Source: Paraburkholderia phenazinium (GTDB taxonomy: Bacteria; Pseudomonadota; Gammaproteobacteria; Burkholderiales; Burkholderiaceae). From it: DNA of 64,000 nucleotides. Made by a program: the position numbers and the translations under genes. The notes under the pieces are model-generated. The model was not told the DNA's origin. It made no database searches and saw nothing but the letters and a program-made list of their open reading frames with translations. This document shows positions 27,337 through 53,954 of this stretch, piece by piece. Every line of letters starts with the position of its first letter. Positions within the stretch are counted from its first letter, which is position 1. The stretch spans positions 3,869,706 to 3,933,705 of the forward strand of contig NZ_FSRU01000001.1 of assembly GCF_900142845.1 (NCBI RefSeq). Reading direction: 5' to 3'.

Positions 27337-27890
27337 CTCGTGCAACCAGCGCTAAAAAGCCCGCCTCAACAGAAGCGAAAGCACTGCGCAAAGGCGTCGC
27401 CAAACCGGCCGAGAACGTGGTCGACATGGAAATGAGCACCGGCGCCGACAGCCATATGGGCCTGCGTCTATGGCTGCGCATGCTCACCACCACCAACCTC
27501 GTGCAAGCCGAATTGCGCAAGCGGCTGCGCAACGAATTCGACACGACGCTGCCGCGCTTCGACCTGATGGCTCAGCTCGAACGCCATCCCGAGGGGCTCA
27601 AGATGACCGAGCTCTCGCGCCGTCTGATGGTGACGGGCGGCAACGTAACCGGCATTACCGATCAGCTCGAAAAGGAAGGCCTCGTCGTGCGCGATGCGGA
27701 TCCAAACGATCGCCGCTCGATCAGCGTGCGTCTGACAACCGACGGCCGCGCGCAGTTCGACCGGATGGCGGTAGCGCACGAACAGTGGGTCGTCGAAATG
27801 TTCGGCGGCCTGAGCCTCGACGAGAAGTCGCGCACGCATCAGCGTCTGGGCAAGCTCAAGAAACATCTGCTCGACAACCTCAAGGGTTGA
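27333..27890 (+). CDS. MarR-family transcriptional regulator of the aminobenzoyl-CoA operon
   Basis: 185 residues. An N-terminal Lys/Ala-rich extension of about 45 residues is followed by the winged-helix core: [50 protein letters not shown], and [23 protein letters not shown] with the wing. MarR proteins of aromatic-CoA pathways usually repress their operon and are released by the CoA-thioester substrate. Here the gene lies third in the operon it presumably controls, allowing autoregulation. ATG 27333 overlaps the SDR stop. Confidence 0.85.
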
Positions 27891-27916
27891 GCGGCACCGA
27901 ACTGGAGGAGATATCC

Positions 27917-28768
27917 ATGACACCATCCCACGTCGACGCCCTGCTGGCCGGCAATCGCGTCACGCTAGCGGGCTATGAGGCGAAGCACTTCGGCTGGTCG
28001 GTCAGCGCCAAGGTCGCGACCGTCACACTGAATCGCCCCGAACGCAAGAACCCGCTGACCTTCGAATCGTATGCCGAGTTGCGCGACCTGTTTCGACAGC
28101 TTGCGTACGCAACCGATGTGAAAGCCGTGGTGATCCACGGTGCCGGCGGCAACTTCTGCTCGGGCGGCGACGTCCACGACATCATCGCGCCGCTGATCGA
28201 CCTGCCGATGCCCGAATTGCTGCTGTTCACCCGCATGACCGGCGATCTGGTGAAGGCCATGCGGCATTGCCCGCAGCCGGTGATTGCCGCCGTCGATGGG
28301 GTCTGCGCAGGCGCAGGCGCCATTCTGGCGATGGCGTCCGACCTGCGCATGGGCACCGCGCGCAGCAAGCTCGCGTTCCTGTTCTCGCGCGTCGGCCTGG
28401 CCGGTTGCGACATGGGCGCGTGCTCGATCCTGCCGCGCATCATCGGCCAGGGACGCGCGTCCGAACTGCTCTTCACCGGCCGCTCGGCGAGCGGCGAAGA
28501 GGGCTACGCCTGGGGCTTCTATAACCGTCTGTGCGAGCCCGATGCCGTGCTCGACGAAGCCGCCAGGCTGGCCGCCGAACTCGTCGCCGGACCGACCTTC
28601 GCACACGGCATCACGAAGAAGATGCTGCACCAGGAATGGAGCATGAGCATCGACGAAGCCATCGAATCCGAGGCGCAAGCGCAGGCCATCTGCATGAGTA
28701 CGCACGATTTCGAACGCGCGTATCGCGCGTTTGCGGCGAAAACGCGTCCGGTGTTCGAAGGAGACTGA
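27917..28768 (+). CDS. Enoyl-CoA hydratase/isomerase-family protein
   Basis: 283 residues of the crotonase fold. [20 protein letters not shown] begins the core, [15 protein letters not shown] is the oxyanion-hole/CoA loop, and [19 protein letters not shown] is the second conserved loop. A strong GGAGGAG site precedes ATG 27917. In the pathway it would hydrate an unsaturated CoA thioester or help open the reduced ring. The usual second catalytic Glu position reads [15 protein letters not shown], so the exact chemistry may differ from classic hydratases. Confidence 0.84.
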
Positions 28769-28769
28769 C

Positions 28770-29974
<1,205 letters not shown>

Positions 29975-29978
<4 letters not shown>

Positions 29979-30418
29979 GCGCGACGTTCGACATGCCAGT
30001 GCGCATCCGCTTCGCGCATTGCGACCCGGCCGGCATCGTGTTCTTTCCGCAGTACCTGGTGCTGACCAACGCGCTGGTCGAAGACTGGTTCACCGAGTGC
30101 CTGCACGTCGACTACGCGCACATGATCGGCGAACGCCGGATCGGCTTGCCGATCGTCAAGCTCGACTGCGAGTTTTCGCGGCCAAGCCGCATGGGCGAAA
30201 CCCTCACGCTCACGCTGAGCGTGAACGCAATCGGCCGGCGTTCGATTCGCCTCGGCATCGTCGGTCATTGCCAGAACGAAGTGCGCTTCCGTGCGCATCA
30301 GGTGCTGGTGACGACGTCGCTCGAAACCGGCCAGTCCATCGATATTCCCGACGACATCGCGAGCGCCCTCGCGCGCTTCGCCCCACCGCCGGCCCTCACC
30401 GACGAGCCACGCTCATGA
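29975..30418 (+). CDS. 4-hydroxybenzoyl-CoA thioesterase-type hotdog thioesterase
   Basis: 147 residues. The motif [13 protein letters not shown] places Asp17 exactly where the catalytic Asp of Pseudomonas-type 4-hydroxybenzoyl-CoA thioesterase lies. A single hotdog domain, cytoplasmic. In aromatic-CoA pathways such enzymes release CoA from dead-end or over-accumulated thioesters. It overlaps the acyl-CoA dehydrogenase stop (ATGA) and the RidA start (ATGA). Confidence 0.85.
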
Positions 30419-30819
30419 AAAAACCTCTCCTCCCTGCCGGCTGGGTCAAGCCGCGCGGCTATGCGAACGGCGTTGCGGCCGTCGGCACCCAGGTGTTCAT
30501 CGCCGGCCAGATCGGCTGGGACGCCGAGGCGCGCTTCCAGTCAAGCGACTTCGCCGCCCAGGCGATTCAGGCCTTGCAGAACATCGTCGCGGTTCTGCAT
30601 GAAGCCGGCGGCAAACCGGCCCACCTGGTGCGTTTGACCTGGTATGTGACGGATAAGCGCGAATACCTCGCCGCGCTCAAGGACATCGGCCGCGCGTTTC
30701 GCGAACTGATCGGCGACTACGACATTGCGATGAGCGCGGTTCAAGTGGTCGCGCTGATCGAAGACGAGGCCAAGGTCGAAATCGAGGCCACTGCAGTGAT
30801 CCCCCACGAAGCCCACTAA
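30415..30819 (+). CDS. RidA-family (YjgF/UK114) enamine/imine deaminase-like protein
   Basis: 134 residues: VFIAGQIGWDAEARFQSSDF at the N-terminal half, LVRLTWYVTDKREY, and VEIEATAVIPHEA at the end, all typical of the RidA fold. Archetypal RidA needs an Arg (R105) that binds the substrate carboxylate. The aligned position here is Met106 (IAMSAVQV instead of PARSxVxV). Ring-reduced 2-aminobenzoyl-CoA is an enamine whose carboxyl group is tied up as a CoA ester, so a RidA without the carboxylate-binding Arg fits hydrolysis of that intermediate. This is inference from fold, residue and context. Confidence 0.83.
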   Translation: MKKPLLPAGWVKPRGYANGVAAVGTQVFIAGQIGWDAEARFQSSDFAAQAIQALQNIVAVLHEAGGKPAHLVRLTWYVTDKREYLAALKDIGRAFRELIGDYDIAMSAVQVVALIEDEAKVEIEATAVIPHEAH

Positions 30820-30836
30820 CCGTTCGGGAGAGCGTC

Positions 30837-32474
30837 ATGGAACCGTCTGCGCACGTCGACACCTTCGCCCGCGACCATCTGCCGCCGCAAGATCAATGGC
30901 CGGTGTTTCTGCTCGACAATCCCGACATCGCCTATCCGGCGCGCTTTAACTGCGCGACCGAGTTACTGGACCGGACCATCGAGGCGGGGCACCGCGACCG
31001 CCCGGCCATCTGGTCCGAGGTGAACGGCGAAGCCCGCGCCACCACGTATGGCGAGTTGCTTGCGTTGGTGAATCGCAGCGCACATGTGCTGGTCGATGAG
31101 TTGGGTCTAAAGCCCGGCAACCGCGTGTTGCTGCGTGGGCCGAATACCTTGCAGATGGCGGTGGCCGCGCTGGCCGCGCTGAAAGCGGGACTCGTGCTGG
31201 TGCCGACGATGCCCCTGCTGCGCGCGAAGGAACTCAAGCAGATCATCGACAAGGCGCAGATCGGCGCCGCCCTCTGCGACGCACGCCTGACCGACGAACT
31301 CGCCCGCTGCCGCGATCCGCAGGACGAATATTTTTGCGCGGGGCTGCAACAGACCTGCCTGTTCCATGACGACGGCGCGGACGCTCTCGAAACCCTCGCC
31401 ACCAGCAAACCCGACCACTTCACCGCCTGCGATACCGCCGCCGACGACGTCTGCCTGATCGCCTTCACCAGCGGCACAACCGGCTTGCCGAAGGGCTGCA
31501 TGCATTTTCATCGCGACGTGCTGATGATGTGCGACCTGTTCCCGCGGCATGTACTCAAACCCAGCGCCACCGATGTGTTCTGCGGCACGCCGCCACTCGC
31601 GTTCACTTTCGGCCTCGGCGGCGTCTTGTGCTTTCCGCTGCGGGTGGGCGCCTCCACCGTGCTGATCGAGCGGCTCACGCCCGAGAGCTTGCTACAGACG
31701 GTGGAGCGCTTTCACGCCACCATCATGTTCACCGCGCCCACCTTCTACCGGCAGATGGCGCCGCTCGTGCCGCGCTTCGATATTTCGAGCCTGCGGAAGA
31801 CCGTTTCGGCCGGCGAAGCGCTGCCCGATTCGACGCGGCATCTGTGGCGCGAAGCGAGCGGCATCGAGATGATCGACGGTATCGGCGGGACCGAGCTGAT
31901 CCATATTTTCATTTCGGCGGCGGGCGCGGATATCCGGCCGCATGCCATCGGCCGCGCGGTGCCGGGTTATATCGTGCAGGCCGTCGACGACGCCATGCAG
32001 CCGGTGCCGCCCGGCACCATCGGCAAGCTCGCCGTGCGCGGGCCGACCGGTTGCCGCTATCTGGCTGACGACCGCCAGACGAAGTTCGTGCGCGACGGCT
32101 GGAACCTGCCCGGCGACTCCGTCTATCTCGACGAGGACGGTTACGTGTTCTACCAGGCACGCGCCGACGACATGATCGTCTCCGCGGGCTATAACATCTC
32201 CGGCCCGGAAGTGGAGAGCGTGCTGCTGCAGCACGATGCGGTAGCGGAATGCGGCGTAGTGGGTGCGCCCGACGAAACGCGTGGCCAGGTCGTCAAGGCG
32301 TTTATCGTCCTTAATCCGGGCTTCACGGCTGACGACAGCATGGTCGCGCAGTTGCAGGAGTTCGTGAAGAACAACGTGGCGCCGTACAAATACCCGCGTC
32401 TGATCGCCTTCGTCGACGCGTTGCCGCGCACCGAAACCGGCAAGCTCAAGCGGTTTGCGTTACGCAGCCTGTAG
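30837..32474 (+). CDS. 2-aminobenzoate-CoA ligase (benzoate-CoA ligase family)
   Basis: 545-residue ANL-superfamily enzyme. Visible are the P-loop TSGTTGLPKGC, the aromatic pocket region PLAFTFGLGG, the acyl-adenylate motif DGIGGTELIHIF, the hinge region ADDMIVSAGYNISGPEVE and the catalytic Lys near the end (RTETGKLKRF). It would activate anthranilate with ATP and CoA, the first step of the pathway encoded upstream. GGGAGAG precedes the ATG. It is the last gene of the operon and is followed by a strong hairpin. A benzoate- or hydroxybenzoate-CoA ligase role is possible, but the monooxygenase/reductase argues for 2-aminobenzoate. Confidence 0.85.
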   Translation: MEPSAHVDTFARDHLPPQDQWPVFLLDNPDIAYPARFNCATELLDRTIEAGHRDRPAIWSEVNGEARATTYGELLALVNRSAHVLVDELGLKPGNRVLLRGPNTLQMAVAALAALKAGLVLVPTMPLLRAKELKQIIDKAQIGAALCDARLTDELARCRDPQDEYFCAGLQQTCLFHDDGADALETLATSKPDHFTACDTAADDVCLIAFTSGTTGLPKGCMHFHRDVLMMCDLFPRHVLKPSATDVFCGTPPLAFTFGLGGVLCFPLRVGASTVLIERLTPESLLQTVERFHATIMFTAPTFYRQMAPLVPRFDISSLRKTVSAGEALPDSTRHLWREASGIEMIDGIGGTELIHIFISAAGADIRPHAIGRAVPGYIVQAVDDAMQPVPPGTIGKLAVRGPTGCRYLADDRQTKFVRDGWNLPGDSVYLDEDGYVFYQARADDMIVSAGYNISGPEVESVLLQHDAVAECGVVGAPDETRGQVVKAFIVLNPGFTADDSMVAQLQEFVKNNVAPYKYPRLIAFVDALPRTETGKLKRFALRSL

Positions 32475-33350: not shown

Positions 33351-34439
33351 ATGCGCCCGCACTATTTACCGTCCAGCCATTCGCCTTTCTCGACCGAGCT
33401 TCGCCGGGAAGTCGCCGCGTATCTCGCGAGCAGGCAGGACCACCGGTTCGGCAATGCGGCGACCTGGCTGAAGGCGGGGAGCCTGCTGGCGATCGCCTGT
33501 GTGCTGTTTGTGCTGTGCTTCCGTGCCCACAGCCCCGCAACGTTCTTCGCGTCCTACGTCGGCATGTTTCTCGCGGCCGTGATGCTGTCGGTCAATTCCA
33601 TGCATGACGCATCGCACGGCGCCCTGTCGAAGTCCAAATGGCTGAACACGCTCGTCATGCGCGCGGTCACGCTGCCACTCGGCATCGAGCCGGCCTACTG
33701 GCAAGCACGGCATGTCCGGTATCACCATGTCTATCCGAACATCGAGCATCACGACCTCGATACCGAGGCCAACGTGTTTCTGCGGCAAACGCCGTTTCAG
33801 GCATGGCACCCGCATTTCCGCTTTCAGCATCTGTACTGGCCGGCAATCGCCGCGCTCTCGCTGCCCTATATCAACTGGATCTACGACTGGTCGGACCGCC
33901 TCGGCACCACACCGCTGGCGCAGGACGGACTGCTGCCCGGCGCGCGCGGCTGGGCGCTGTTCATCGCTTCGAAGCTGGTTCACTTTGGCGTGTTCCTGGT
34001 GTTGCCGCTCGTGCTGCTCGGTCCCACGGTCGGCTACGGGACGGTCTTCGCCGCGTATCTGGCGGGTCAAATGCTCGCCTCATCCATCCTGTTGATGCTG
34101 ATCCTCGGTACGCATTGGGCCGAGACGGAGTTTTATCTGCTGCCCGCCGACGGCCGCTTGCCGCACACGCGCGACGAGCACGCCTTCCTGACCTGCTGCG
34201 ACTGGATCACGCGCCCCGCTTTCATCGGCGCCTGGCTGGGCGGTCTCAATCACCATCTCACGCATCATCTGTTTCCGGGGCATGGGCATCGGCACTATCG
34301 TGCGATTGCGCCGATCGTCGAGCGCCTGGCGCGGCAACACGGTCTGCCCTATCGGGCGATCGGTTACGCTGAACTGCTTTCGAGCCAGCAGCGTTTCCTG
34401 AGAAAGATGGGGCAGGCGCCCCGGAGTCTGTCGGCATGA
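33351..34439 (+). CDS. Membrane fatty acid desaturase
   Basis: 362 residues with several TM helices and three His boxes: HDASH (85-89), HVRYHH (121-126) and, near the C-terminus, NHHLTHHLFPG. This is the di-iron membrane desaturase family (acyl-CoA/acyl-lipid front-end or omega type). It would introduce a double bond into an acyl chain using O2 and an electron donor; no ferredoxin or cytochrome b5 domain is fused. It is the first gene of a seven-gene set with overlapping starts, and its stop overlaps the next ATG. The true substrate (lipid, CoA or ACP ester) is unknown. Confidence 0.85.
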   Translation: MRPHYLPSSHSPFSTELRREVAAYLASRQDHRFGNAATWLKAGSLLAIACVLFVLCFRAHSPATFFASYVGMFLAAVMLSVNSMHDASHGALSKSKWLNTLVMRAVTLPLGIEPAYWQARHVRYHHVYPNIEHHDLDTEANVFLRQTPFQAWHPHFRFQHLYWPAIAALSLPYINWIYDWSDRLGTTPLAQDGLLPGARGWALFIASKLVHFGVFLVLPLVLLGPTVGYGTVFAAYLAGQMLASSILLMLILGTHWAETEFYLLPADGRLPHTRDEHAFLTCCDWITRPAFIGAWLGGLNHHLTHHLFPGHGHRHYRAIAPIVERLARQHGLPYRAIGYAELLSSQQRFLRKMGQAPRSLSA

Positions 34440-35449
34440 CCACCCTCGTCACCGGCGCCACTAGCGGGCTTGGCCGCAACGCCGCCGCGTTTCTTGCGCA
34501 GCAGCGCCGCAGCGTACGCACCACCGGCCGTAATCGCGCGGCCGGCGAGGCGCTGCAGGCGCTCGGCATGGCGTTCGTGCCGCTCGACCTCGCCGGCGCC
34601 ACCAGCGCCGATCTGGAGTCTCTGCTGCAAGGTGTCGATACGGTGTGGCATTGCGCGGCGCTGTCGTCGCCATGGGGCGCATGGGCCGACTTTCACGCGG
34701 CCAATGTGCTCGCCACCTCGCGCCTCGCGCATGCGGCAGTCGCGAACGGGGTGCGCCGCTTCATCCATATCTCGACTCCCGCGCTCTATTTCGATTTCAA
34801 CCACCGGCTCGATATCGAAGAAACGTTTCGCCCGGCCAGCTATGTGAACCACTACGCGAGCACCAAGGCGCAGGCCGAGGACGTCATCCGCGCGGTCGCC
34901 GCCACGCATCCGGATACCACCTTCGTGATGCTGCGGCCGCGCGCCATTTTCGGTCCGCACGACCGGGTACTGCTGCCGCGCATCCTGCGGCTGTTGCGCG
35001 AGCGCGGCGGTCGCTTGCCGCTGCCGCGCGCAGGCACGGCCAAGGTCGATCTGACCTATGTGGGCAACGTGATCCATGCGATGCAACTGGCCACCACCAG
35101 CCCCGATGTGCGCTCCGGCGAAGCCTTCAACATCACCGGTAACGAGCCCACTTGCCTGCGCGACGTGCTCGACGTCCTGCTGACGCGGCTCGGCATCGCC
35201 TACCGGATCAAGGACGTGCCGTATCCCGTCCTCGACCTCGCCGCCCGCGCCATGCAGCGCTGGGCCGCGATCAGCGGACGCGAACCGCTACTGACGCGCT
35301 ATAGCGTCGGCGCATTGAGTTTCGACATGACGCTCAGCACGCGCAAAGCGCAGCAGGTGCTCGGCTATCAACCGCGCTGGACGCTGCAGCAGAGCATCGA
35401 AGAGACCGTCAACTGGATCAGGGCACATGGCGACGATTACGGTCTTTGA
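34436..35449 (+). CDS. NAD(P)-dependent epimerase/dehydratase, 3-beta-HSD/OleD-like reductase
   Basis: 337 residues, extended SDR family. The cofactor motif is VTGATSGLG (residues 5-13), the catalytic pair is in YASTKAQAED, and LRPRAIFGPHDR and DLTYVGNVIHA follow, as in 3-beta-hydroxysteroid dehydrogenases and OleD (2-alkyl-3-oxoalkanoate reductase). It would reduce a keto group or oxidise a hydroxyl on a hydrophobic substrate. It overlaps the desaturase stop (ATGA) and the next gene by 23 bp. No OleA, OleB or OleC partner is present, so an olefin pathway is not complete here. Confidence 0.82.
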   Translation: MTTLVTGATSGLGRNAAAFLAQQRRSVRTTGRNRAAGEALQALGMAFVPLDLAGATSADLESLLQGVDTVWHCAALSSPWGAWADFHAANVLATSRLAHAAVANGVRRFIHISTPALYFDFNHRLDIEETFRPASYVNHYASTKAQAEDVIRAVAATHPDTTFVMLRPRAIFGPHDRVLLPRILRLLRERGGRLPLPRAGTAKVDLTYVGNVIHAMQLATTSPDVRSGEAFNITGNEPTCLRDVLDVLLTRLGIAYRIKDVPYPVLDLAARAMQRWAAISGREPLLTRYSVGALSFDMTLSTRKAQQVLGYQPRWTLQQSIEETVNWIRAHGDDYGL

Positions 35450-36233
35450 AGCCGGCTACTGCACGCACATGGCGTGCATGGCGCTAAAGGGTGCGGGCTT
35501 CGCAAGCTGCCGGTTTCCGGCGCGGGCGTATCTGATCGAAACGTCCCGCGGACGCTGGCTGTGGGATACCGGGTATGCGCAGCACTTCCACGACCATACG
35601 AAGAGCGGCCTCTTCTCTCTATACCGGCGCGTGACGCCGGTTTACTTCGACGCGAAAGAGGCCGTGGTCAGTCAGCTAAAAGCGCGCGGCATGCAGCCGC
35701 GCGATCTCACCGCCGTGATCCTGTCGCACTTCCATGGCGACCATATTGCCGGCTTGCGCGATCTGCAGGGCGTGCCCACTTACCTCTCGGGCGCCGGTTG
35801 GGAAGCGACGCGTGGTCTGCGCGGCATCGGCGCATTGCGCAAGGGTTTCGTACCGGGCCTGATTCCGCCGGACTTCGAGTCGTCCACTGTGTTTGTCGAA
35901 AGCTTCGAGCGGGTTGCCCTGCCTTCCGAGCTTGAACCGTTCCGCCAGGGCTTCGGGCTGCCAGGCGCGTGCACGGAAGTGATTCTGGTCGAATTGCCTG
36001 GACACGCCGCCGGTCATCTCGGCGCCTTCGTCAGTACCGCTGACGGTTGGGTACTGCTCGCATCCGATGCGGCCTGGTCGCCGAAGAGCTATCAGCAACT
36101 GGTGGGACCGTCCGTCATCGCACACGCCATCATGGACAGTCCCGCCGAATACCATCAAACCTTGCGCGACCTGAATGCGCTGCATACGCGCGGCGAAGTG
36201 AAGATCTGCCTCACGCACGAAGGGGCGTTGTAA
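35427..36233 (+). CDS. MBL-fold metallo-hydrolase
   Basis: 268 residues. The metal-binding motif is LSHFHGDHIAGL at about 99-110, with a later His in LPGHAAGHLGAF and Asp in LLASDAAW, and a final His in CLTHEG: the full set of MBL ligands. Such enzymes hydrolyse esters, lactones or thioesters, or act as phosphodiesterases. In this operon it may release or hydrolyse an acyl intermediate. It overlaps the reductase gene by 23 bp, and its stop shares bases with the next start (TAATG). Confidence 0.82.
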   Translation: MATITVFEAGYCTHMACMALKGAGFASCRFPARAYLIETSRGRWLWDTGYAQHFHDHTKSGLFSLYRRVTPVYFDAKEAVVSQLKARGMQPRDLTAVILSHFHGDHIAGLRDLQGVPTYLSGAGWEATRGLRGIGALRKGFVPGLIPPDFESSTVFVESFERVALPSELEPFRQGFGLPGACTEVILVELPGHAAGHLGAFVSTADGWVLLASDAAWSPKSYQQLVGPSVIAHAIMDSPAEYHQTLRDLNALHTRGEVKICLTHEGAL

Positions 36234-37519
36234 TGCGCCTTGCAGAGACGCTCTGGTCGTATTGGCAGACACGCCGCTTGCGCTTCGCGACCCGCGAGGT
36301 GCTCGAACAACATCAGCAGCGCAAGCTAAAGCAGTTTATCCGCCTGCACCTGACGCGCAGTCCGTGGTTCGCACCGCATCTGTCGCAACCGCTGCAAACG
36401 TGGCCGTTGATGAACAAGGCGGTCATGATGGAGCATTTCGACCGCATCAATACGGCGGGACTCAAGCTCGACGAAGTGCTCGCCTGTGCGATGCAGGCCG
36501 AACACTCGCGCGACTTCGAGGCTACCGTGAACGGCTATAGCGTGGGCCTGTCTTCGGGCACCTCCGGTTCGCGCGGTGTGTTCGTCGTGAGTCCGGCCGA
36601 GCAGGCGAAGTGGGCGGGTGTCCTGCTCGCCAAACTCCTGCCGCGCGGACTCTTTCACGGCGAGCGGGTCGCGCTGTTTCTGCGCGCCAACAACAACCTG
36701 TATTCGTCGGTGCGCAATCCGTGGCTTTCGTTTGAGTTCTTCGACCTGTTCGAGCCGTTCGACGCGCATTTCGAGCGCCTGAACCGCTACGATCCGACCA
36801 TCGTCGTGGGCCCGGCACAGGTGCTGCGCAGTCTGGCGCTGGCTAGAACCGCAGGATACCTGACGATCAAACCGCACAAGGTCATCTCCGGCGCCGAAGT
36901 GCTGGACCCGCTCGATAAGGTGCTGATCGGCGCCTCGCTCGGGACAGTCGGCGAGGTCTATCAGGCCACGGAGGGTTTTCTCGCGGCCACCTGCGAATAC
37001 GGCACGCTGCACCTGAACGAAGCGCATATCCACGTCGAACCTCAATGGCTCGACGGCGAACGCTTTGTGCCGGTCATCACGGATTTCACGCGCGTGACGC
37101 AGCCCATTGTGCGTTACCGTTTAGACGACATCCTCGTGCGGCGTTCGACGCCTTGCCCCTGCCATAGCCATGAGATGGCACTGGAGCGGATCGAAGGACG
37201 CTGCGACGACCTGCTGCGCCTGCCCGGTGCAAACGGCGCGCCGGTGGAGGTGTTCGCCGACGGCCTGTCCCGAGCCATTGCGCAAACGCTGCCGCGCACG
37301 GCGGACTATCGGCTGGTTCAAACCGGGCCGGCGTCGCTCGCACTTTACGTCGACGCGCCAGGTGCGCCGCTCACGCAATATGAGGCCGATCTGAGCGCCT
37401 ATCTGCAACGCCTGGGCGTGGCGACTGCAAGCCTGGAATGGGACCTGCACGCCGCCTTGCCGCCCACCGATTTCAGCGCCAAACGCCGGCGCATCACCCG
37501 GCTTCGGGAGGCACGCTGA
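36233..37519 (+). CDS. F390-synthetase/phenylacetate-CoA-ligase-like adenylate-forming enzyme
   Basis: 428 residues. The nucleotide-binding loop is SSGTSGSRGVFVVS, the adenylate motif region is YQATEGFLAATC, and VRYRLDDILV resembles the YxTGD-type motif. Basic residues near the end (FSAKRRRITRL) may supply the catalytic Lys. The group is annotated CoF/F390 synthetase-like, but coenzyme F420 derivatives are not expected here. It more likely activates a carboxylic acid with ATP. No carrier protein is encoded nearby, so the acceptor (CoA, amine or alcohol) is unknown. Its frame overlaps both neighbours by one or two bases. Confidence 0.75.
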   Translation: MRLAETLWSYWQTRRLRFATREVLEQHQQRKLKQFIRLHLTRSPWFAPHLSQPLQTWPLMNKAVMMEHFDRINTAGLKLDEVLACAMQAEHSRDFEATVNGYSVGLSSGTSGSRGVFVVSPAEQAKWAGVLLAKLLPRGLFHGERVALFLRANNNLYSSVRNPWLSFEFFDLFEPFDAHFERLNRYDPTIVVGPAQVLRSLALARTAGYLTIKPHKVISGAEVLDPLDKVLIGASLGTVGEVYQATEGFLAATCEYGTLHLNEAHIHVEPQWLDGERFVPVITDFTRVTQPIVRYRLDDILVRRSTPCPCHSHEMALERIEGRCDDLLRLPGANGAPVEVFADGLSRAIAQTLPRTADYRLVQTGPASLALYVDAPGAPLTQYEADLSAYLQRLGVATASLEWDLHAALPPTDFSAKRRRITRLREAR

Positions 37520-38181
37520 TGCCTGTACTCGCGCGCTTGCGCTTCATGTTGCTGGGGTGGGGGGCGGTGGGCGTGGCCTACACGACCGGCCGCGTGCTCT
37601 CCGGTACGCCGACCCTGCTGCCCGAAACCGCACTCGACCGCCTGATTCCATTCAATCCGGCGGGCGTGTGGCTCTATCTGTCGTTTTTCCTGCTAGTGCC
37701 GCTCGCCTTCCTGACCACGGATGCGGCCCGCGTGCCTCGCCTCGCCCGTGCAATGCAACTGTGTGCGGTGGTATCCGCGGTGATCTTCGTGCTGTGGCCC
37801 ACTACGCTCCATTACCCGCCGATCCCGTCCGGCGCCGCAGGGGCATCGTTGCTTGACGGGCTGATCGCCTCGGATTCCGCGCAGAACTGTTTTCCGTCGC
37901 TGCATGGCGCGCTGACCTTGCTGTGCGTCGCCGCCCTCTGCAGCCGGCGCAGGCCGGTTGCAAGCGTGCTGGCGGTGCTGTGGGGCTTCGGGATCGGCTG
38001 GTCGGTCATCCAGACGCGCCGCCATCTGGCGATCGACCTCGGCGCAGGCATGCTGCTCGGCTGCGCCAGCGGCTGGCTGGTCGCCCATCTGAGCCGCCTG
38101 CGCGATCGGCGAGCGACATCCCCGGCTGCGTCCTCGAACGCCAAAGCCGCGTTCGAAACAGAACTGGAAAGCGAATCATGA
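37519..38181 (+). CDS. PAP2-superfamily membrane phosphatase/phosphotransferase (inositolphosphotransferase-like subgroup)
   Basis: 220 residues with five or six TM helices. NCFPSLHGALTLL and RRHLAIDLGAG are the second and third PAP2 motifs, holding the catalytic His residues; a clear first motif (KxxxxxxRP) is not visible. The NxFPSLH form is typical of the subgroup that includes Aur1-like inositolphosphotransferases. It would dephosphorylate a lipid phosphate or move a phospho-headgroup at the membrane. Start and stop overlap both neighbours (TGATG and ATGA). Together with the desaturase and oxygenase it marks the operon as lipid-directed. Confidence 0.78.
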   Translation: MPVLARLRFMLLGWGAVGVAYTTGRVLSGTPTLLPETALDRLIPFNPAGVWLYLSFFLLVPLAFLTTDAARVPRLARAMQLCAVVSAVIFVLWPTTLHYPPIPSGAAGASLLDGLIASDSAQNCFPSLHGALTLLCVAALCSRRRPVASVLAVLWGFGIGWSVIQTRRHLAIDLGAGMLLGCASGWLVAHLSRLRDRRATSPAASSNAKAAFETELESES

Positions 38182-39302
38182 ATGCAATGGCCCTCCCCCT
38201 GCTGATCACGCTCGCTTGCGTGCTACTGGAGCTGGGGTACTCGCGTGTCCGGCGCGGCCTGGCGATTCCGTGGCGGGACGTGATCCTGAATCTGGATTCC
38301 GGGCATATCCTGATGTGGTTCTTCCGGGGCATCGAAGTCGCGGTCTTTGCGTGGATCCTGGCGCACGTCAACCTGCATTGGCTCGATCGCTGGCATCCCG
38401 CCGCCGTGTGGATCTTCGCGATCCTCGCGTGGGATCTCGGGTTCTACTGGATGCATCGCCTGCATCATTCGTTCGGGGTGCTATGGAGCGTTCACGTGGT
38501 CCACCACGAGGGCGAGCACTTCAATCTCTCGCTCGGCATCCGCAACTCCTGGTATTCGTCGCTGACCACGCTGCCGTTTACGACGATACCGCTCGCTTTG
38601 GCCGGCGTTCCGCTGGACATCTTCATTGCCGTGTCGACGCTTCACTACACCGTGCAGTTCTATAACCACAACGGTATCGTCGGCCGCTCCGGACTGCTGG
38701 ACCGGTTTCTGGTCACCCCCGCGAATCACCGGGTTCACCATGGGCACAACGCCGAGTATCGCGACCGCAATTTCGGCGGCACCTTCCTCATCTGGGACAA
38801 GCTGTTCGGCACGTTTCAGCGCGAACTGCCTGGCGTGCCGATCCAGTACGGCATCGCCACGCCCACAGATTCCACCAATCCATTCTGGGCGAACACGGTG
38901 CCGCTGCTGCGCTATGCGGGCTTACGCGTGCCGCGGCTCACCAGCGTGCGCCGCCTTTCTGTGCCCGACGCGGTGATCGCAAGCGGCGGCGTGATCCTGT
39001 TCGGCGTCGTCACCTACTACGTGCATCGCAACGGCACCTGGCCGGAATTTGGGCAGCCCACCTTCTTCGCCCTGATCTTCGCCGCAACGCTTGCATTGGG
39101 TGGCATGTCGGATGGCCGCCTCTGGGGTGTGGCGAGCTGGGTTGTCATCGCCGCGCTCTCGCTCGCCATCATGCCGCTGTATTTCGGCCTGCGCGATCCT
39201 CTCGGGCTGAGTCTGCTAGGCGCGCTGCTCGTGCACAGCGTCGTGGCCGCTATCGTCACGCTACGTGTGCGGGAAAAAGCGTCGAGCTATGTCCAAACCT
39301 GA
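38178..39302 (+). CDS. Sterol desaturase/fatty acid hydroxylase-superfamily membrane oxygenase (alkylglycerol monooxygenase-like)
   Basis: 374 residues. The di-iron His clusters are WMHRLHHS, HVVHHEGEHFN and NHRVHHGHNAEYRDRNFGG, within an N-terminal four-helix region. It continues into about four more C-terminal TM segments, a layout seen in alkylglycerol monooxygenase-type members. It would hydroxylate, desaturate or cleave a lipid chain or ether with O2. ATG 38178 overlaps the PAP2 stop, and its 3' end overlaps the next gene by 14 bp. Confidence 0.83.
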   Translation: MNAMALPLLITLACVLLELGYSRVRRGLAIPWRDVILNLDSGHILMWFFRGIEVAVFAWILAHVNLHWLDRWHPAAVWIFAILAWDLGFYWMHRLHHSFGVLWSVHVVHHEGEHFNLSLGIRNSWYSSLTTLPFTTIPLALAGVPLDIFIAVSTLHYTVQFYNHNGIVGRSGLLDRFLVTPANHRVHHGHNAEYRDRNFGGTFLIWDKLFGTFQRELPGVPIQYGIATPTDSTNPFWANTVPLLRYAGLRVPRLTSVRRLSVPDAVIASGGVILFGVVTYYVHRNGTWPEFGQPTFFALIFAATLALGGMSDGRLWGVASWVVIAALSLAIMPLYFGLRDPLGLSLLGALLVHSVVAAIVTLRVREKASSYVQT

Positions 39303-40134
39303 TATTCGCCGCCGCGACCTCGATTTCAACATGAAGGACGCCATTCCCGTTCACTGGCTGGACGGCGAGTGCCACATCACGCGCCATTACGACGCCATGT
39401 CGATCATGTTCCCGGAAGGCGAACGCGCGTTCATCGAGAGCGTGTCCCTGTATCGCGACCATATCGCGCCTGGGACGCCGCTCGCCGAGGACGTCGCCGG
39501 GTTTGTCGGCCAGGAAGCGATCCATCGACGCGAACATCAACGCTATAACGCGAGGCTCGCGGCGCAGGGCGCGCCGGTTGCCGCGCTCGAGCGCCAGGTT
39601 GCCGGACAACAGGAGTTTGCGCGCCGCTATCTGCCGGATAGCGTGCGGCTCGCCATCACGGTGTGTCTCGAACACTTCACCGCCATGCTCGCCGACCAGA
39701 TGCTCCGGCAGCGTGCCTGCATGAAGGGCGCGGATCCGCGCATGCGCCGCATCTGGGGGTGGCACGCGGTGGAAGAAACCGAACATAAAGGCGTCGCGTT
39801 CGATGTCTTCGCGCACGTCATCCGCCATCCGGTGAAGCGCTACGCATTGCGTTGCGCAGCCATGCTGTGGGTCACAGCCATCTTTACGCTGCTGGCCTGG
39901 GGTTTTACGTTCAGCCTCGTCAAACACGATCGCCGCCTCACGGACTGGCGCGGCTGGGGACGCTTGCTGCGCTATCACTTCGTCTCGCCTGGCGCGCTCG
40001 TGCGCATCGTGCCGCACTGGCTCGCCTGGTTCTCGCCGGGTTTTCACCCATGGCAACACGACAACCGCGAGCTCGTGCGCGAGGCTTACCGGGAATATGA
40101 CGTGCCGTGGGACGAAGGCCGCGCGAGGCTGTAG
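39289..40134 (+). CDS. PF10118-type predicted metal-dependent hydrolase (ferritin-like di-iron helical protein)
   Basis: 281 residues. QEAIHRREHQRYN and WHAVEETEHKGVAFDV give paired Glu/His clusters on helices, the pattern of the PF10118 family (COG3687), which looks like a ferritin-like di-iron oxygenase rather than a proven hydrolase. Other conserved parts are MFPEGERAFIESV and VCLEHFTAMLA. A hydrophobic segment near 190-210 may touch the membrane. ATG 39289 is chosen over 39265 because the shorter form matches the family start (SKPDIRRRDLDF). It is the last gene of the operon, with a hairpin directly after its stop. Confidence 0.8.
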   Translation: MSKPDIRRRDLDFNMKDAIPVHWLDGECHITRHYDAMSIMFPEGERAFIESVSLYRDHIAPGTPLAEDVAGFVGQEAIHRREHQRYNARLAAQGAPVAALERQVAGQQEFARRYLPDSVRLAITVCLEHFTAMLADQMLRQRACMKGADPRMRRIWGWHAVEETEHKGVAFDVFAHVIRHPVKRYALRCAAMLWVTAIFTLLAWGFTFSLVKHDRRLTDWRGWGRLLRYHFVSPGALVRIVPHWLAWFSPGFHPWQHDNRELVREAYREYDVPWDEGRARL

Positions 40135-40139
40135 ATTCG

Positions 40140-40163
40140 ACCGGGCCAGGTCTCGCCCGGTTT
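40140..40163 (+). terminator. Terminator hairpin of the lipid-type operon
   Basis: ACCGGGC (40140-40146) and GCCCGGT (40155-40161) form a perfect seven-base stem with an eight-base loop, followed by TTTGTG. It begins six bases after the last stop codon of the seven-gene operon and 84 bases before the GST gene. Confidence 0.65.
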
Positions 40164-40244
40164 GTGAGGCGGTGCTTCACTCTATATTTAGCACTATCCA
40201 AGCCGGCTATGATGTGACACTCCACAGGCCCGGATCTCATACTC

Positions 40245-42672: not shown

Positions 42673-43506
42673 ATGAACCCCGTCAAAAAAGCGCTCTGGT
42701 TTATCGAAAGCCACTATTCGCGCGAGTTGACACTCGACGACATCGCGAGCGGCGGCTGCGTTTCGCGCTACCACCTGTCGCGTGCCTTCGAAGCGGCAAC
42801 GGGCCGCTCGGTGATGCGTTACGTGCGGGCACGACGCCTGACCGAAGCGGCGCGGCGTCTGGCAGGCGGCGCACCCGATATTCTGGCAGTAGCCATGGAA
42901 GCGGGATACGGCTCTCATGAGGCATTCACGCGCGCGTTTCGCGAGCAGTTCGGGCTCACGCCCGAGGCGTTGCGCGCGCAGGGACATCTCGACAACATCC
43001 CCCTCGTGGAGCCGATCAAAATGGATGAAACCGTTCTTACCAACCTTCCTCCGCCTCGCTTCGAGAACGGCAAGCCGCTGCTCGTCGCGGGCCTCGCCGA
43101 ACGCTACACCTGCGATACCAGCGCGGCCATTCCCGCCCAGTGGCAGCGCTTTAACGAATACTTCGGCAAAGTGCCCGGACAGATCGGCAACGTCGCCTAC
43201 GGCATCTGCTATAACGCCGACGACAGCGGCAATTTCGACTATCTATGCGGTGTCGAAGTCAGCGACTTCTCCAGCCTGCCTGCCGGGTTGAGCCATGTGC
43301 GGGTGCCCGAGCAGCGCTATGCCGTCTTCGCGCACCATGAGCATATCGCCGTGATTCGGCGCAGTTGGAACACCATCTGGAATCAATGGCTGCCGGAATC
43401 GGGGCATACGCCCGCCGACGCGCCGAACTTCGAGCGCTACAGCGAGCAGTTCGACCCCGTCACAGGCATGGGCGGCTTCGAGATCTGGCTGCCGCTCAAG
43501 ACGTGA
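42673..43506 (+). CDS. AraC-family regulator with C-terminal GyrI-like effector domain
   Basis: 277 residues. An N-terminal double HTH (LTLDDIASGGCVSRYHLSRAF; DILAVAMEAGYGSHEAFTRAF) is followed from about residue 120 by a GyrI-like/SOUL-type small-molecule-binding domain (PAQWQRFNEYFGKVPGQ; YAVFAHHEHIAVI; FEIWLPLK). This resembles Rob/BmrR-type multidrug-sensing regulators and is placed next to a DHA2 exporter. Its 3' end overlaps that of the convergent threonyl-tRNA synthetase-like gene by 11 bp. Confidence 0.85.
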   Translation: MNPVKKALWFIESHYSRELTLDDIASGGCVSRYHLSRAFEAATGRSVMRYVRARRLTEAARRLAGGAPDILAVAMEAGYGSHEAFTRAFREQFGLTPEALRAQGHLDNIPLVEPIKMDETVLTNLPPPRFENGKPLLVAGLAERYTCDTSAAIPAQWQRFNEYFGKVPGQIGNVAYGICYNADDSGNFDYLCGVEVSDFSSLPAGLSHVRVPEQRYAVFAHHEHIAVIRRSWNTIWNQWLPESGHTPADAPNFERYSEQFDPVTGMGGFEIWLPLKT

Positions 43507-44752
43507 TGGCGCCTTGACGGAGCGCGGCGATCCGCAACCGCTCGACGCCCTCGGCAAACGCCAGCACAACCTGGTGCCCGTCCCGTTCGCGGATGCTGAT
43601 CGTCTGGTCGCGTTCATCGCGCGGCCCGACCGCGACGAAGACAGGCACCTGCTTCTCGCGCGCATCGACGATTTTCTTCTCCAGCCGCTCCGGGCGATCG
43701 TCGAGCACGACCCTGACGCCGGCGTCTTCAAGCGCCTGCACCACCTGCGCGGCATACGCCGCGCAGGCGTCGTTGATCGTCGCCACGGCAACCTGCTCCG
43801 GCGCGAGCCACAACGGCAGCCAGCCTTCGTGATGCTCGAGCAGCATGGCGATGAAACGCTCCATGCTGCCCAGCACAGCGTGATGGATCATCACCGGCCG
43901 CTCGCGCTCGTTGCGCTCGTTGACGTAGAGCGCGTCAAGCCGCTCGGGCAAGACGAAATCGAGCTGAATCGTGCCGCACTGCCAACTACGTCCCCGGCTA
44001 TCGAGCAGATGAAATTCCAGCTTGGGACCGTAGAACGCACCCTCGCCCTCGCGCACGTCGAACTGCAGTCCGGCCGCCAGCGCGGCTTGGGCCAACGCCG
44101 CTTCGGCACGATCCCAGACCTCGTCGGCGCCTGCCCGCAACGCGGGGCGCGTCGCCAGGGCGACGGAGAAAGCGGGAAAGCCGAGGTCGGCGTAGACGTT
44201 ACGCAGCAGATCGCAAAAGCGTCCGACTTCGAGCTCGATCTGCGCCTCCGTGCAAAAGACATGCGCGTCGTCCTGCACGAATGCGCGCGTGCGCTTGAGG
44301 CCCTCTAGCGAACCGGAAGGCTCATCGCGATGACAGGCGCCGAACTCGCTATAACGCACCGGCAACTCGCGGTACGAACGCACGCGCTGATTAAACACCT
44401 GTACGTGGCAGGGGCAGCTCATGGGCTTGAGACACAGCGCGCGGGCTTCGGACGCACCATCCGCATCGTGCGCTTCGCTCGCGCCGCCCGAACCCTGTCC
44501 TTCGGATAACGAATACATCTGGGCGCCAAATTTCTCCCAATGACCGCTGCGCTCCCAGATGGAGCGGGCGAGCAGTTGCGGCGTGCGGATTTCGCGGAAG
44601 CCCGCGCGCCGCATCCGCTGGCGAATATAGTCTTCCAGCACGCGATACAGCTCCCAGCCGCGCGGATGCCAGAAAACCATGCCGGGACCTTCCTCCTGCT
44701 GGTGGAAAAGGTCCAGCTTGTTACCTAAAACACGATGATCGATGTCGTTCAC
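43496..44752 (-). CDS. Second threonyl-tRNA synthetase lacking the TGS and editing domains
   Basis: 418 residues from GTG 44752. The class II catalytic core and anticodon domain are complete: motif 2 around YSEFGACHRDEPSGSLEGLK, zinc-site Cys in PMSCPCHVQVF, His in QDDAHVF, motif 3 VLGSMERF, and a C-terminal anticodon-binding domain (VAVATINDACAAYA). The roughly 240-residue N-terminal TGS plus Ser-editing region of housekeeping ThrRS is missing. A Ser/Gly/Ala/Glu-rich insert of about 20 residues precedes the zinc Cys. The gene is controlled by a threonine-codon leader and attenuator. It is probably a starvation or inhibitor-resistance paralog that relies on another enzyme for proofreading. 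Confidence 0.85.
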   Translation of the reverse strand: MNDIDHRVLGNKLDLFHQQEEGPGMVFWHPRGWELYRVLEDYIRQRMRRAGFREIRTPQLLARSIWERSGHWEKFGAQMYSLSEGQGSGGASEAHDADGASEARALCLKPMSCPCHVQVFNQRVRSYRELPVRYSEFGACHRDEPSGSLEGLKRTRAFVQDDAHVFCTEAQIELEVGRFCDLLRNVYADLGFPAFSVALATRPALRAGADEVWDRAEAALAQAALAAGLQFDVREGEGAFYGPKLEFHLLDSRGRSWQCGTIQLDFVLPERLDALYVNERNERERPVMIHHAVLGSMERFIAMLLEHHEGWLPLWLAPEQVAVATINDACAAYAAQVVQALEDAGVRVVLDDRPERLEKKIVDAREKQVPVFVAVGPRDERDQTISIRERDGHQVVLAFAEGVERLRIAALRQGAITS

Positions 44753-52302: not shown

Positions 52303-52397
52303 TTTAACCGTGCCCGTCCCTAGACTGGTTTCATGGGACGCGGCGGCGATCGGTGCCGCAGACGATTCGTCCCCTCACGAGTCGGAACAGGCACACA

Positions 52398-53276
52398 ATG
52401 ATCTCCACAGGAAAAATTTCGCTCTTTGCTACAGCGATTGTCGTCAGCGCGTCGATGATCGAAGCATGGGTCCTCAGCCGCAAAAAAACCGCGCATTTCG
52501 ACTGGCATGAAGTGATGCTGTCGTTGACCGACCTGGTCGGCCGCAAGCTGCTTGCGCTCCTGCCCTTATCGCTGGCTGCGCCGATCTTCGCGTTTGCATG
52601 GGACCATCGCATCTATACGGCCACTATCAACAGCGCGTTGATGGTGTTGTTGCTGTTCGTCGGGCAAGAGTTCTTCTATTACTGGTATCACCGCGCGTCT
52701 CACCGCATCCGTTTCTTCTGGGCAACCCATGCGGTTCACTATTCGCCGAATCAACTGACGCTCTCCTCGGCATACCGTCTTGGCTGGACCGGAAAGCTGA
52801 CCGGTACCGCGATGTTCTTCACGCCGCTCGTCTGGCTCGGCATCCGCCCCGAAGTCGTGCTGGCGACGTTGATGATCAATCTGCTGTATCAGTTCTGGCT
52901 GCACAACACATGGATGCCGAAACTAGGCTGGCTGGAATATGTGTTCAACACGCCATCGGCTCATCGCGTGCATCACGCATCGAACGTAGAGTATCTGGAT
53001 GCGAATTACGGCGGTGTGCTGATTATCTTCGATCGCCTGTTCGGCACCTACGTCGCCGAGCGCGACGATCTGCCCTGCCGCTATGGCCTCACAACGCCGA
53101 CACGTTCGCACAATCCCTTTGTCGTGCAGTTCGAACATTGGGTGAGCCTCGCTCGCGACATCGCATCGTCGAAGCGTCCGTGGACCGCGATCGGATATGT
53201 GCTGCGTCCGCCGGGTTGGAGGCCGGACGGTGCAGGGGAAACGACGGAGGATTTGCGGCGGGGGGTGACGCACTAA
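52398..53276 (+). CDS. Sterol desaturase-family membrane oxygenase
   Basis: 292 residues with about four TM helices. His clusters are YYWYHRASHRIRFFWATHAVH, FWLHNTW and AHRVHHASNVEYLDANYGG (di-iron site). LIIFDRLFGTYV follows as usual. ATG 52398 is chosen as the first start before the hydrophobic N-terminus; the longer frame from 52353 has no support. It shares the superfamily with the oxygenase at 38178 but is shorter and without the C-terminal TM extension. The lipid substrate is unknown. Confidence 0.83.
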   Translation: MISTGKISLFATAIVVSASMIEAWVLSRKKTAHFDWHEVMLSLTDLVGRKLLALLPLSLAAPIFAFAWDHRIYTATINSALMVLLLFVGQEFFYYWYHRASHRIRFFWATHAVHYSPNQLTLSSAYRLGWTGKLTGTAMFFTPLVWLGIRPEVVLATLMINLLYQFWLHNTWMPKLGWLEYVFNTPSAHRVHHASNVEYLDANYGGVLIIFDRLFGTYVAERDDLPCRYGLTTPTRSHNPFVVQFEHWVSLARDIASSKRPWTAIGYVLRPPGWRPDGAGETTEDLRRGVTH

Positions 53277-53445: not shown

Positions 53446-53952
53446 GTGGATTATCCGATCAAGACGCTTAATCAGCTACGGCCCATTCTGCAGGGATTCC
53501 GCAAAGCTGCTGGGCTCACGCAAGCCATGATGGCCAGTCGCCTCGGTGTGACGCAGCAGACTTACGCCCAGCTTGAGGCCAATCCGGCCGCAGTCAGCGT
53601 AGAGCGGCTCTTTAGGGTCTTGCGTGCACTGGATGTCGATCTGACGCTGGCTTACACCGCTGCGCGTCCACAGAAAGGCGGCGTTCCGCGCAAGACTGCT
53701 CCGCCTCCTCCGGCAAGCATGTCCGTCGCAGCCCGAAAAAATAAGGGTGCTAAGGCAAAGACCTTGCCGGCCGCTCACGCAAAACGCGTCACGCCTGGCA
53801 AGACGAAAAGTCCGCAGGAAACCTCATTGCGTGCCAGCAGCGCCCCAAAACGGGCTGAAACAACCCGGAAAAGCAGCAACAACAATGAGCCTACTGTCCG
53901 ACGAAGCGCCAGAACGACGGGAGGGAGCAACAAGAAAAGGGAGAATTGGTAA
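53446..53952 (+). CDS. hipB: HipB-like Xre-family antitoxin/repressor with a long basic tail
   Basis: 168 residues from GTG 53446, preceded by CCGGAGACC; the upstream in-frame ATG 53416 lies at the edge of an operator. The Xre HTH covers about residues 8-60 (LQGFRKAAGLTQAMMASRLG; TQQTYAQLEANPAAVSVERL). From about residue 75 a 90-residue tail rich in Lys, Arg, Ala, Pro and Ser follows (ARKNKGAKAKTLPAAHAKR); E. coli HipB (88 residues) has no such tail. It should neutralise the adjacent HipA kinase and repress the operon through three upstream palindromes. Confidence 0.84.
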   Translation: MDYPIKTLNQLRPILQGFRKAAGLTQAMMASRLGVTQQTYAQLEANPAAVSVERLFRVLRALDVDLTLAYTAARPQKGGVPRKTAPPPPASMSVAARKNKGAKAKTLPAAHAKRVTPGKTKSPQETSLRASSAPKRAETTRKSSNNNEPTVRRSARTTGGSNKKRENW

Positions 53953-53954
53953 AC

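Follow-up and report, generated by a model that had tools for sequence, protein, structure and literature searches.

A seven-gene lipid-type operon of Paraburkholderia as the probable larger half of a split pathway with its ketosynthase at a distant locus

The Pseudomonas quinolone signal (PQS) pathway (PqsA, PqsBC, PqsD and PqsE) combines a ligase, a condensing enzyme of the 3-ketoacyl-acyl carrier protein synthase III (KAS-III) type and a metallo-beta-lactamase-fold protein, a logic shared by the four-gene core described below; and OleB, of the OleABCD system, is a beta-lactone decarboxylase of the alpha/beta-hydrolase type. OleA, OleC and OleD jointly produce beta-lactones (PMC7064751, in the sections available), and the glutamate base of OleA is Glu117, followed by a proline (PMC7064751; PMC4578411; likewise in the sections available). 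Here we describe a seven-gene operon at positions 33351–40134 of a 64,000-nucleotide stretch of a Paraburkholderia genome (contig NZ_FSRU01000001.1; the whole stretch is called the window), which carries no ketosynthase (KS) gene. Our best explanation, to which we give a probability of about 0.6, is a pathway to a fatty-acid-derived compound that is divided between two loci, with this operon as its larger half; that the pathway is split, with its KS supplied in trans, is in itself highly probable.

The source genome is 8.5 Mb in three contigs and the closest named relative found was Paraburkholderia phenazinium LMG 2247, with 88% identity in the AMP protein. The operon and its 3' end read as follows:

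33351..34439, + strand: Des, 362 amino acids, membrane fatty-acid-desaturase-type di-iron protein (PF00487, 95.7 bits; three His boxes)
34436..35449, + strand: Red, 337 amino acids, extended short-chain dehydrogenase/reductase (SDR), OleD-like ketone reductase; core enzyme (PF01370, PF01073; YASTK motif)
35427..36233, + strand: MBL, 268 amino acids, lactonase-type metallo-beta-lactamase-fold hydrolase; core enzyme (PF00753)
36233..37519, + strand: AMP, 428 amino acids, F390-synthetase-related, PaaK-type adenylate-forming enzyme; core enzyme (TIGR02304)
37519..38181, + strand: PAP2, 220 amino acids, PAP2-superfamily membrane phosphatase or head-group transferase (PAP2_3, 31.7 bits, cut-off 27)
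38178..39302, + strand: StD, 374 amino acids, fatty-acid-hydroxylase/sterol-desaturase superfamily oxygenase (PF04116, 97.7 bits)
39289..40134, + strand: MetH, 281 amino acids, PF10118 ferritin-like di-iron protein
40139..40180, + strand: two neighbouring hairpins past the last stop, a possible terminator (RNA fold of 40128–40200)

A preliminary description had given seven open reading frames (ORFs) that overlap or touch throughout, and both ends and junctions were confirmed on re-measurement: Des and Red overlap by 4 nucleotides (nt) at ATGA, Red and MBL by 23 nt, MBL and AMP by 1 nt (TAATG), AMP and PAP2 by 1 nt (TGATG), PAP2 and StD by 4 nt and StD and MetH by 14 nt. The families it named for the seven products were borne out by Pfam and NCBIfam, as were its three different di-iron proteins by the motif sets of Des (HDASH, HVRYHH and HHLTHH), StD (HRLHH, HVVHH and HRVHH) and MetH (the ExxH pairs EAIH and ETEH, at E76xxH and E163xxH; PF10118 279.2 bits against a gathering score of 33.2). 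Its hairpin after the last stop held in part: the RNA following the MetH stop is structured (-27 kcal/mol, z -2.6), but terminator-like sites in the region are not above chance (4 against a mean of 5.3 in shuffles).

Genome contigs were scanned with a 17-row AMP alignment, giving 185 relatives. The 80 best were retained as loci, and their ORFs were scored against the window proteins, those of two clusters from Escherichia coli and Paenibacillus, and additional references. For the count of architectures, ORF matches below 45 bits were dropped (90 for Red, 150 for a second SDR) and a same-strand gap reaching 400 nt ended a cluster; overlap filters hid PAP2 in L163 and KS in L164, and both genes were taken from other scans. 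A KAS-III-type KS gene lies immediately upstream of Red in 76 of the 79 testable loci, the 80th (L071) beginning just before AMP. The three loci with no KS in this place are L035 and L036, which alone among the 80 have the exact window order Des-Red-MBL-AMP-PAP2-StD-MetH, and L047 from Budvicia; the window order with a KS inserted, Des-KS-Red-MBL-AMP-PAP2-StD-MetH, was found in four loci (L037, L038, L041 and L043). Gene order is therefore conserved among relatives, which upholds the proposal that the operon is dedicated, conserved and of lipid type; we found no described pathway to which it corresponds. KS and Red overlap at ATGA in L037, L038, L039, L041 and L043, as do Des and Red in the window and L035, and a remnant of KS was not found between Des and Red in the window, L035 or L036.

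KS-Red-MBL-AMP is thus a four-gene core with variable tailoring genes. Among the 80 loci, KS-Red-MBL-AMP-PAP2-StD-Des was the commonest arrangement (33), and a second Des was added in 19; the core genes stood alone in six (in two of these a PAP2 gene lies some 0.6 kb upstream) and with an SDR and a glycosyltransferase of family GT21 in three, and a further three had both sets; the other 16 were of the MetH type (four with KS and two without, which are all the loci with MetH), variants, or cut by contig ends. The loci with the core alone or with SDR and GT21 indicate that the core is independent of the lipid modifiers. This bears on the view of the preliminary description that the operon works without a KS and modifies existing lipid. 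Membrane lipids made beforehand would then be desaturated, hydroxylated and dephosphorylated by it, and the distant KS would belong to an unrelated pathway. Such a view has on its side that the window copy is without a KS, acyl carrier protein (ACP) or thioesterase gene and that three of the seven products are of di-iron oxidase or desaturase types, but a KS that adjoins the core in nearly every relative, and a core that occurs without these modifiers, argue against it.

The taxonomic range of the core takes in Burkholderiales, Enterobacterales, Pseudomonas, some Alphaproteobacteria and Bacillota. When plasmid records were searched by tblastn with AMP, 57 had a match, and 10 of the 12 examined hold all four core genes, including a Fusobacterium record with KS placed after AMP; the Pseudomonas amygdali and Leaf58 records do not hold all four. 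Core neighbours vary: ATP-grasp and GNAT proteins in Paenibacillus and Paraburkholderia PREW-6R, ATP-grasp only in Pontibacillus, divergent sulfotransferase and TetR genes in Ketogulonicigenium and Paracoccus, and in Rhizobium a DUF3419 gene that the core precedes. Among the tailoring genes beside the core, GT21 was matched at 115.7 bits and HpnI at 91.4 bits, under its cut-off of 310. The E. coli cluster, between the narI and tRNA-Tyr genes, is present in 672 of 5426 complete E. coli genomes, in 671 of them over at least 80% of its length. One 386-kb E. coli plasmid (L031, NZ_CP141085.1) bears the cluster together with narGHJI and purU, which accompany it on the chromosome, and so has probably acquired a piece of chromosomal DNA. 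In Pseudomonas caricapapayae (L091, 5140–6170) a frameshift or an error in the sequence divides the KS into two ORFs (130 and 332 bits).

A single TIGR02304 match was found in the window genome, and a search with the P. dinghuensis KS gave two KS matches there. One of these two (139.9 bits) is FabH, at L119 beside ORFs judged by eye to be FabF- and PlsX-like; the other, at G000:C1:344811-345812, has 43% identity to the query and lies within a partner locus:

around C1:344811-345812, - strand: L146, genes for an ArsR-type regulator, KS, ATP-grasp, GNAT-like and Rieske protein

The GNAT-like protein of L146 is at 39.5% to the Paenibacillus GNAT protein and has no Pfam match. The contig that bears this KS also bears the operon; by contig coordinates the distance between them is 3.56 Mb, which would shrink to about 0.37 Mb were the contig a closed circle. 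In three further genomes of Paraburkholderia (G492, G506 and G517) the same genes, here called type II, stand together in a single cluster, where Red-MBL-AMP follows KS and precedes ATP-grasp; the window genome, G460 and G497 have the type II locus without exactly Red-MBL-AMP, leaving 47 nt between KS and ATP-grasp in the window genome, 32 nt in L147 and 29 nt in L148. P. phenazinium and strain 4M9327F10 have a partner locus like that of the window genome. In each of the three split genomes the single core KS and the single Red-MBL-AMP set belong to different cluster types. Trees of 35 rows each, chosen from the loci collected, place window AMP (8 rows, support 100/99) and MBL (99/97) in the type I clade, with window Red there at a weaker support of 94/92, below threshold, and the KS of the window genome in the type II clade (6 rows, 100/100). 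The two loci of the window genome complement each other, and at the level of the genomes the split is plain.

We propose that type I (Des-KS-Red-MBL-AMP-PAP2-StD-MetH) and type II (ArsR-KS-Red-MBL-AMP-ATPgrasp-GNAT-Rieske) clusters of different origins met in one genome and that each would then have lost what the other supplied, type I its KS and type II its Red-MBL-AMP; from these complementary losses the window operon would depend on the KS at the partner locus. G727, where both cluster types are present with all four core genes, is in the expected starting state for such a split, and Budvicia has a second split of another kind, with Red-MBL-AMP at L047 and KS-PAP2-Des at L162 on a different contig. 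Complementary splits in two lineages are a further point against a modifier of existing lipids.

Whether the operon might instead be a decaying remnant, on its way out after losing its KS, was judged from selection. The window copy is indeed without KS; but the ratio of nonsynonymous to synonymous substitution rates (dN/dS), taken against L035 and L036, which share the KS loss, is 0.07–0.25 over all seven operon genes, the catalytic motifs are intact and the loss is common to three genomes, which in the collections used represent separate species. We therefore consider decay extremely improbable. For the five partner-locus genes dN/dS against L147 and L148 is 0.10–0.17, so that operon and partner locus are both under purifying selection and neither half looks decaying.

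The core KS and AMP also travel together. AMP (E ≤ 1e-80) was found in seven of 144 Paraburkholderia genomes and core KS (E ≤ 1e-60) in the same seven; among 299 genomes sampled from the family, 17 carried AMP and 20 carried core KS (E ≤ 1e-55), the latter including all 17. Three genomes belong to both the Paraburkholderia and the family tally. Kinship among the genomes makes the nominal odds of this co-occurrence too small to serve as probabilities. In Caballeronia glebae a stop in the KS match region precedes the gene start when the frame is read. Because a KS is usual before Red, the window lacks one and a core KS is kept, under purifying selection, at a second locus, the operon does not look like a free-standing lipid modifier, and modification of existing lipid, quite unlikely on these grounds, gives way to a split pathway with its KS in trans.

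Solved structures and motifs place the core enzymes. Cys, His and Asn are invariant in 26 rows of the core KS, and the closest structures to the P. dinghuensis KS were 4v2p (170 bits), which we take to be MxnB, and CorB 4yuc (162), ahead of the best FabH-named chain (154). The nearest NCBIfam family of Red is OleD (NF042422, 158 bits, cut-off 580); a simple G..G..G pattern was not found in the motif check of this protein. AMP scored 523.1 bits for TIGR02304 against a curated cut-off of 251.9, a Pfam search of it gave no match at E ≤ 0.01, its predicted fold is PaaK-type and adenylation motifs are present. MBL has the HxHxDH metal motif and a predicted fold in the lactonase group, with lactonases as its nearest folds, and at 51–62 bits did not reach the cut-offs of 325–390 for the AiiA, AttM and 4-pyridoxolactonase equivalogs. 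Structure prediction and fold search were run on MBL and AMP, whose fold classes are thus predicted ones; a fold family unlisted there is not thereby excluded. PAP2 conserves H129, H169 and D173 across 14 alignment rows and lacks the KX6RP motif that was looked for, StD is weakly similar to OlsE (77.8 bits against a cut-off of 475), and a sequence search of solved structures gave no match at E ≤ 1 for PAP2 and StD and two chance-level matches for MetH.

These likenesses raise the possibility of an OleADC analogue, in which KS, Red and AMP would make an alpha-alkyl beta-lactone, as OleA, OleC and OleD do, and the lactonase-fold MBL would open or decarboxylate it in place of OleB. The enzyme classes match (thiolase-fold condensing enzyme, OleD-like reductase, adenylate-forming enzyme, lactone-acting hydrolase), and the nearest family of Red and the nearest folds of MBL agree with them. 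However, at the OleA/PpyS glutamate position, matched by inference through the CorB alignment, all 26 KS rows have Leu or Ile before the Pro, and core KS scores only about 35 bits to the 3row chains, presumably OleA; AMP is PaaK-type with no Pfam AMP-binding match; and Red lies far under the OleD cut-off. Plain OleA membership of the core KS was rejected on the glutamate position and Ole membership of the operon was not supported by the score of Red against OleD or, for an OleC-type ligase, by the Pfam search and predicted fold of AMP; an OleB-type hydrolase is not in the operon, where the hydrolase has a metallo-beta-lactamase fold, the rest of the genome not having been searched for OleB. 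We regard an OleADC analogue as unlikely.

A PQS-like or aryl route would have AMP as an aryl-CoA ligase, KS joining aryl-CoA to a malonyl or beta-ketoacyl partner, MBL as a thioesterase and a diffusible signal as product. Numerous PaaK-type ligases in the AMP fold list bind aromatic acids, and the 'PQS biosynthetic enzyme' 3h76 (93.8 bits), which we assume to be PqsD, and PqsC (55.7 bits) are among the solved KS relatives; both fall far below 4v2p, CorB and FabH, however, the tailoring genes are lipid-type and PQS clusters are not known to carry an OleD-like reductase, making this route distinctly improbable.

For the split pathway, KS would couple an acyl thioester with another acyl or malonyl unit, one that is activated beforehand, and Red would turn the beta-ketone into a beta-hydroxy compound; condensation of acyl units by KS and reduction of the product by Red are moderately probable. 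AMP may adenylate the hydroxy-acid, leading to a thioester, lactone or acyl donor, and MBL may hydrolyse a lactone or thioester en route, so that the four core enzymes would yield one fatty-acid-derived hydroxylated intermediate. Des, StD and MetH would afterwards desaturate or hydroxylate the chains, and PAP2 would take off or transfer a phosphorylated head group. Reaction order, product and enzyme chemistry are what we infer here: the desaturation, oxygenation, keto reduction and acyl activation of the preliminary description are plausible at the level of enzyme class rather than of order or substrate. The tailoring sets suggest a lipid bearing a group to which head-group chemistry could be applied and, as two unlike sets seem to share one core per cell, a core product common to both. 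The product may be a two-chain hydroxy-lipid that receives head groups, though this is less likely than not. More speculatively, and with a low probability, the core might make a new and widespread class of two-chain hydroxy-lipid backbones, ceramide-like and built without serine palmitoyltransferase, with heads varying by bacterium (PAP2-type phosphoryl chemistry, GT21 sugar, DUF3419, sulfate, amino-acyl); in window-type Paraburkholderia a single core would then serve two families of this kind.

Several observations weigh against the split pathway with its KS in trans. The distant KS is taken as partner because the genome has no other core KS, and FabH could in principle serve. No 9- or 10-base word is common to the 310-base stretches upstream of the two window-genome loci, which gives no sign of a shared operator, and across genomes only a few upstream pairs share words, none consistently (window/L148, L035/L146, L035/L147 and L036 with L146–L148). 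In L036, unlike the window and L035, Des and Red are 11 nt apart with no overlap. KS matches without AMP occur in three genomes of the family sample (G592, G662 and G698), all partial and one with a stop. Three of the seven Paraburkholderia carriers form one clade, so that these are not seven independent events. Finally, the joining of two plain acyl chains is unsupported by the residue that in core KS replaces the OleA/PpyS glutamate.

Right before the ArsR-type start in six loci (L146–L151) there is a conserved block, CTTGAC and CTAG.TTTATAG, which is a likely promoter or operator of the type II cluster; it was not seen before Des. Elsewhere in the window, 52353–53276 (+ strand) encodes a second sterol-desaturase-family protein (120 bits to the StD of the E. 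coli cluster). Upstream of the operon, 27470–32474 (+ strand) holds enoyl-CoA-hydratase-like, acyl-CoA dehydrogenase, thioesterase-like, RidA-like and benzoate-CoA-ligase-family genes (hydratase, thioesterase and RidA by eye; ligase 350 bits, just below the TIGR02262 cut-off of 375) and looks like an aromatic-acid degradation operon. At 43496–44752 (- strand), beside an AraC-like gene, is a 418-amino-acid threonyl-tRNA synthetase (TIGR00418, 452 bits, cut-off 384); it matches only positions 171–562 of 565, so the N-terminal region is lacking, and is possibly a specialised or resistance copy. A HipA-like protein, by eye from its translation, is encoded at 53946–55289 (+ strand). As to a defence system, none of the seven operon proteins matched PADLOC at E ≤ 0.001, and this candidate was rejected.

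The four-gene-core pathway is widespread in bacteria and apparently undescribed; no published description of the cluster was found in the open-licence literature, and subscription papers may have been missed. If our reading is true, a large bacterial group makes an unrecognised lipid or fatty-acid product, and deletion of the KS at one locus should abolish the products of both routes. Judging by the split clusters, two tailoring routes may draw on a single core, and reading a single operon can conceal a missing enzyme encoded elsewhere in the genome.

To our knowledge no Red-MBL-AMP core lies beside MxnB or CorB. These pyrone ketosynthases of myxopyronin and corallopyronin are nonetheless the closest solved relatives of the core KS, with Cys-His-Asn and without the OleA-base glutamate (PMC4578411, in the sections available); their substrates, unlike those proposed here, are polyketide-synthase products. 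OleABCD and OleADC, including the lipstatin type, likewise have a thiolase-fold condensing enzyme, an OleD-like reductase and an adenylate-forming enzyme in one operon (PMC7064751, with the same restriction), whereas here KS lacks the OleA glutamate, a PaaK-type ligase stands for OleC and MBL for OleB, and lipid-tailoring genes are added. From PQS the core differs in its distant KS (93.8 bits to 3h76 against 170 to 4v2p), and in its additional OleD-like reductase and membrane oxygenases. AMP is a member of TIGR02304, 'F390 synthetase-related protein', a family for which a pathway was not found in the literature and which is here tied to the four-gene core; a transposon-mutant table of Pseudomonas syringae pv. 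actinidiae, as far as that source was available, has a 'Coenzyme F390 synthetase' gene whose identity with a TIGR02304 gene is not established. The tailoring genes belong, at family level only, to superfamilies like those of ceramide and hopanoid head-group enzymes (GT21, HpnI, AUR1-type PAP2, sphingolipid hydroxylases and desaturases), and those other than GT21/HpnI are presumably akin to the sphingolipid enzymes.

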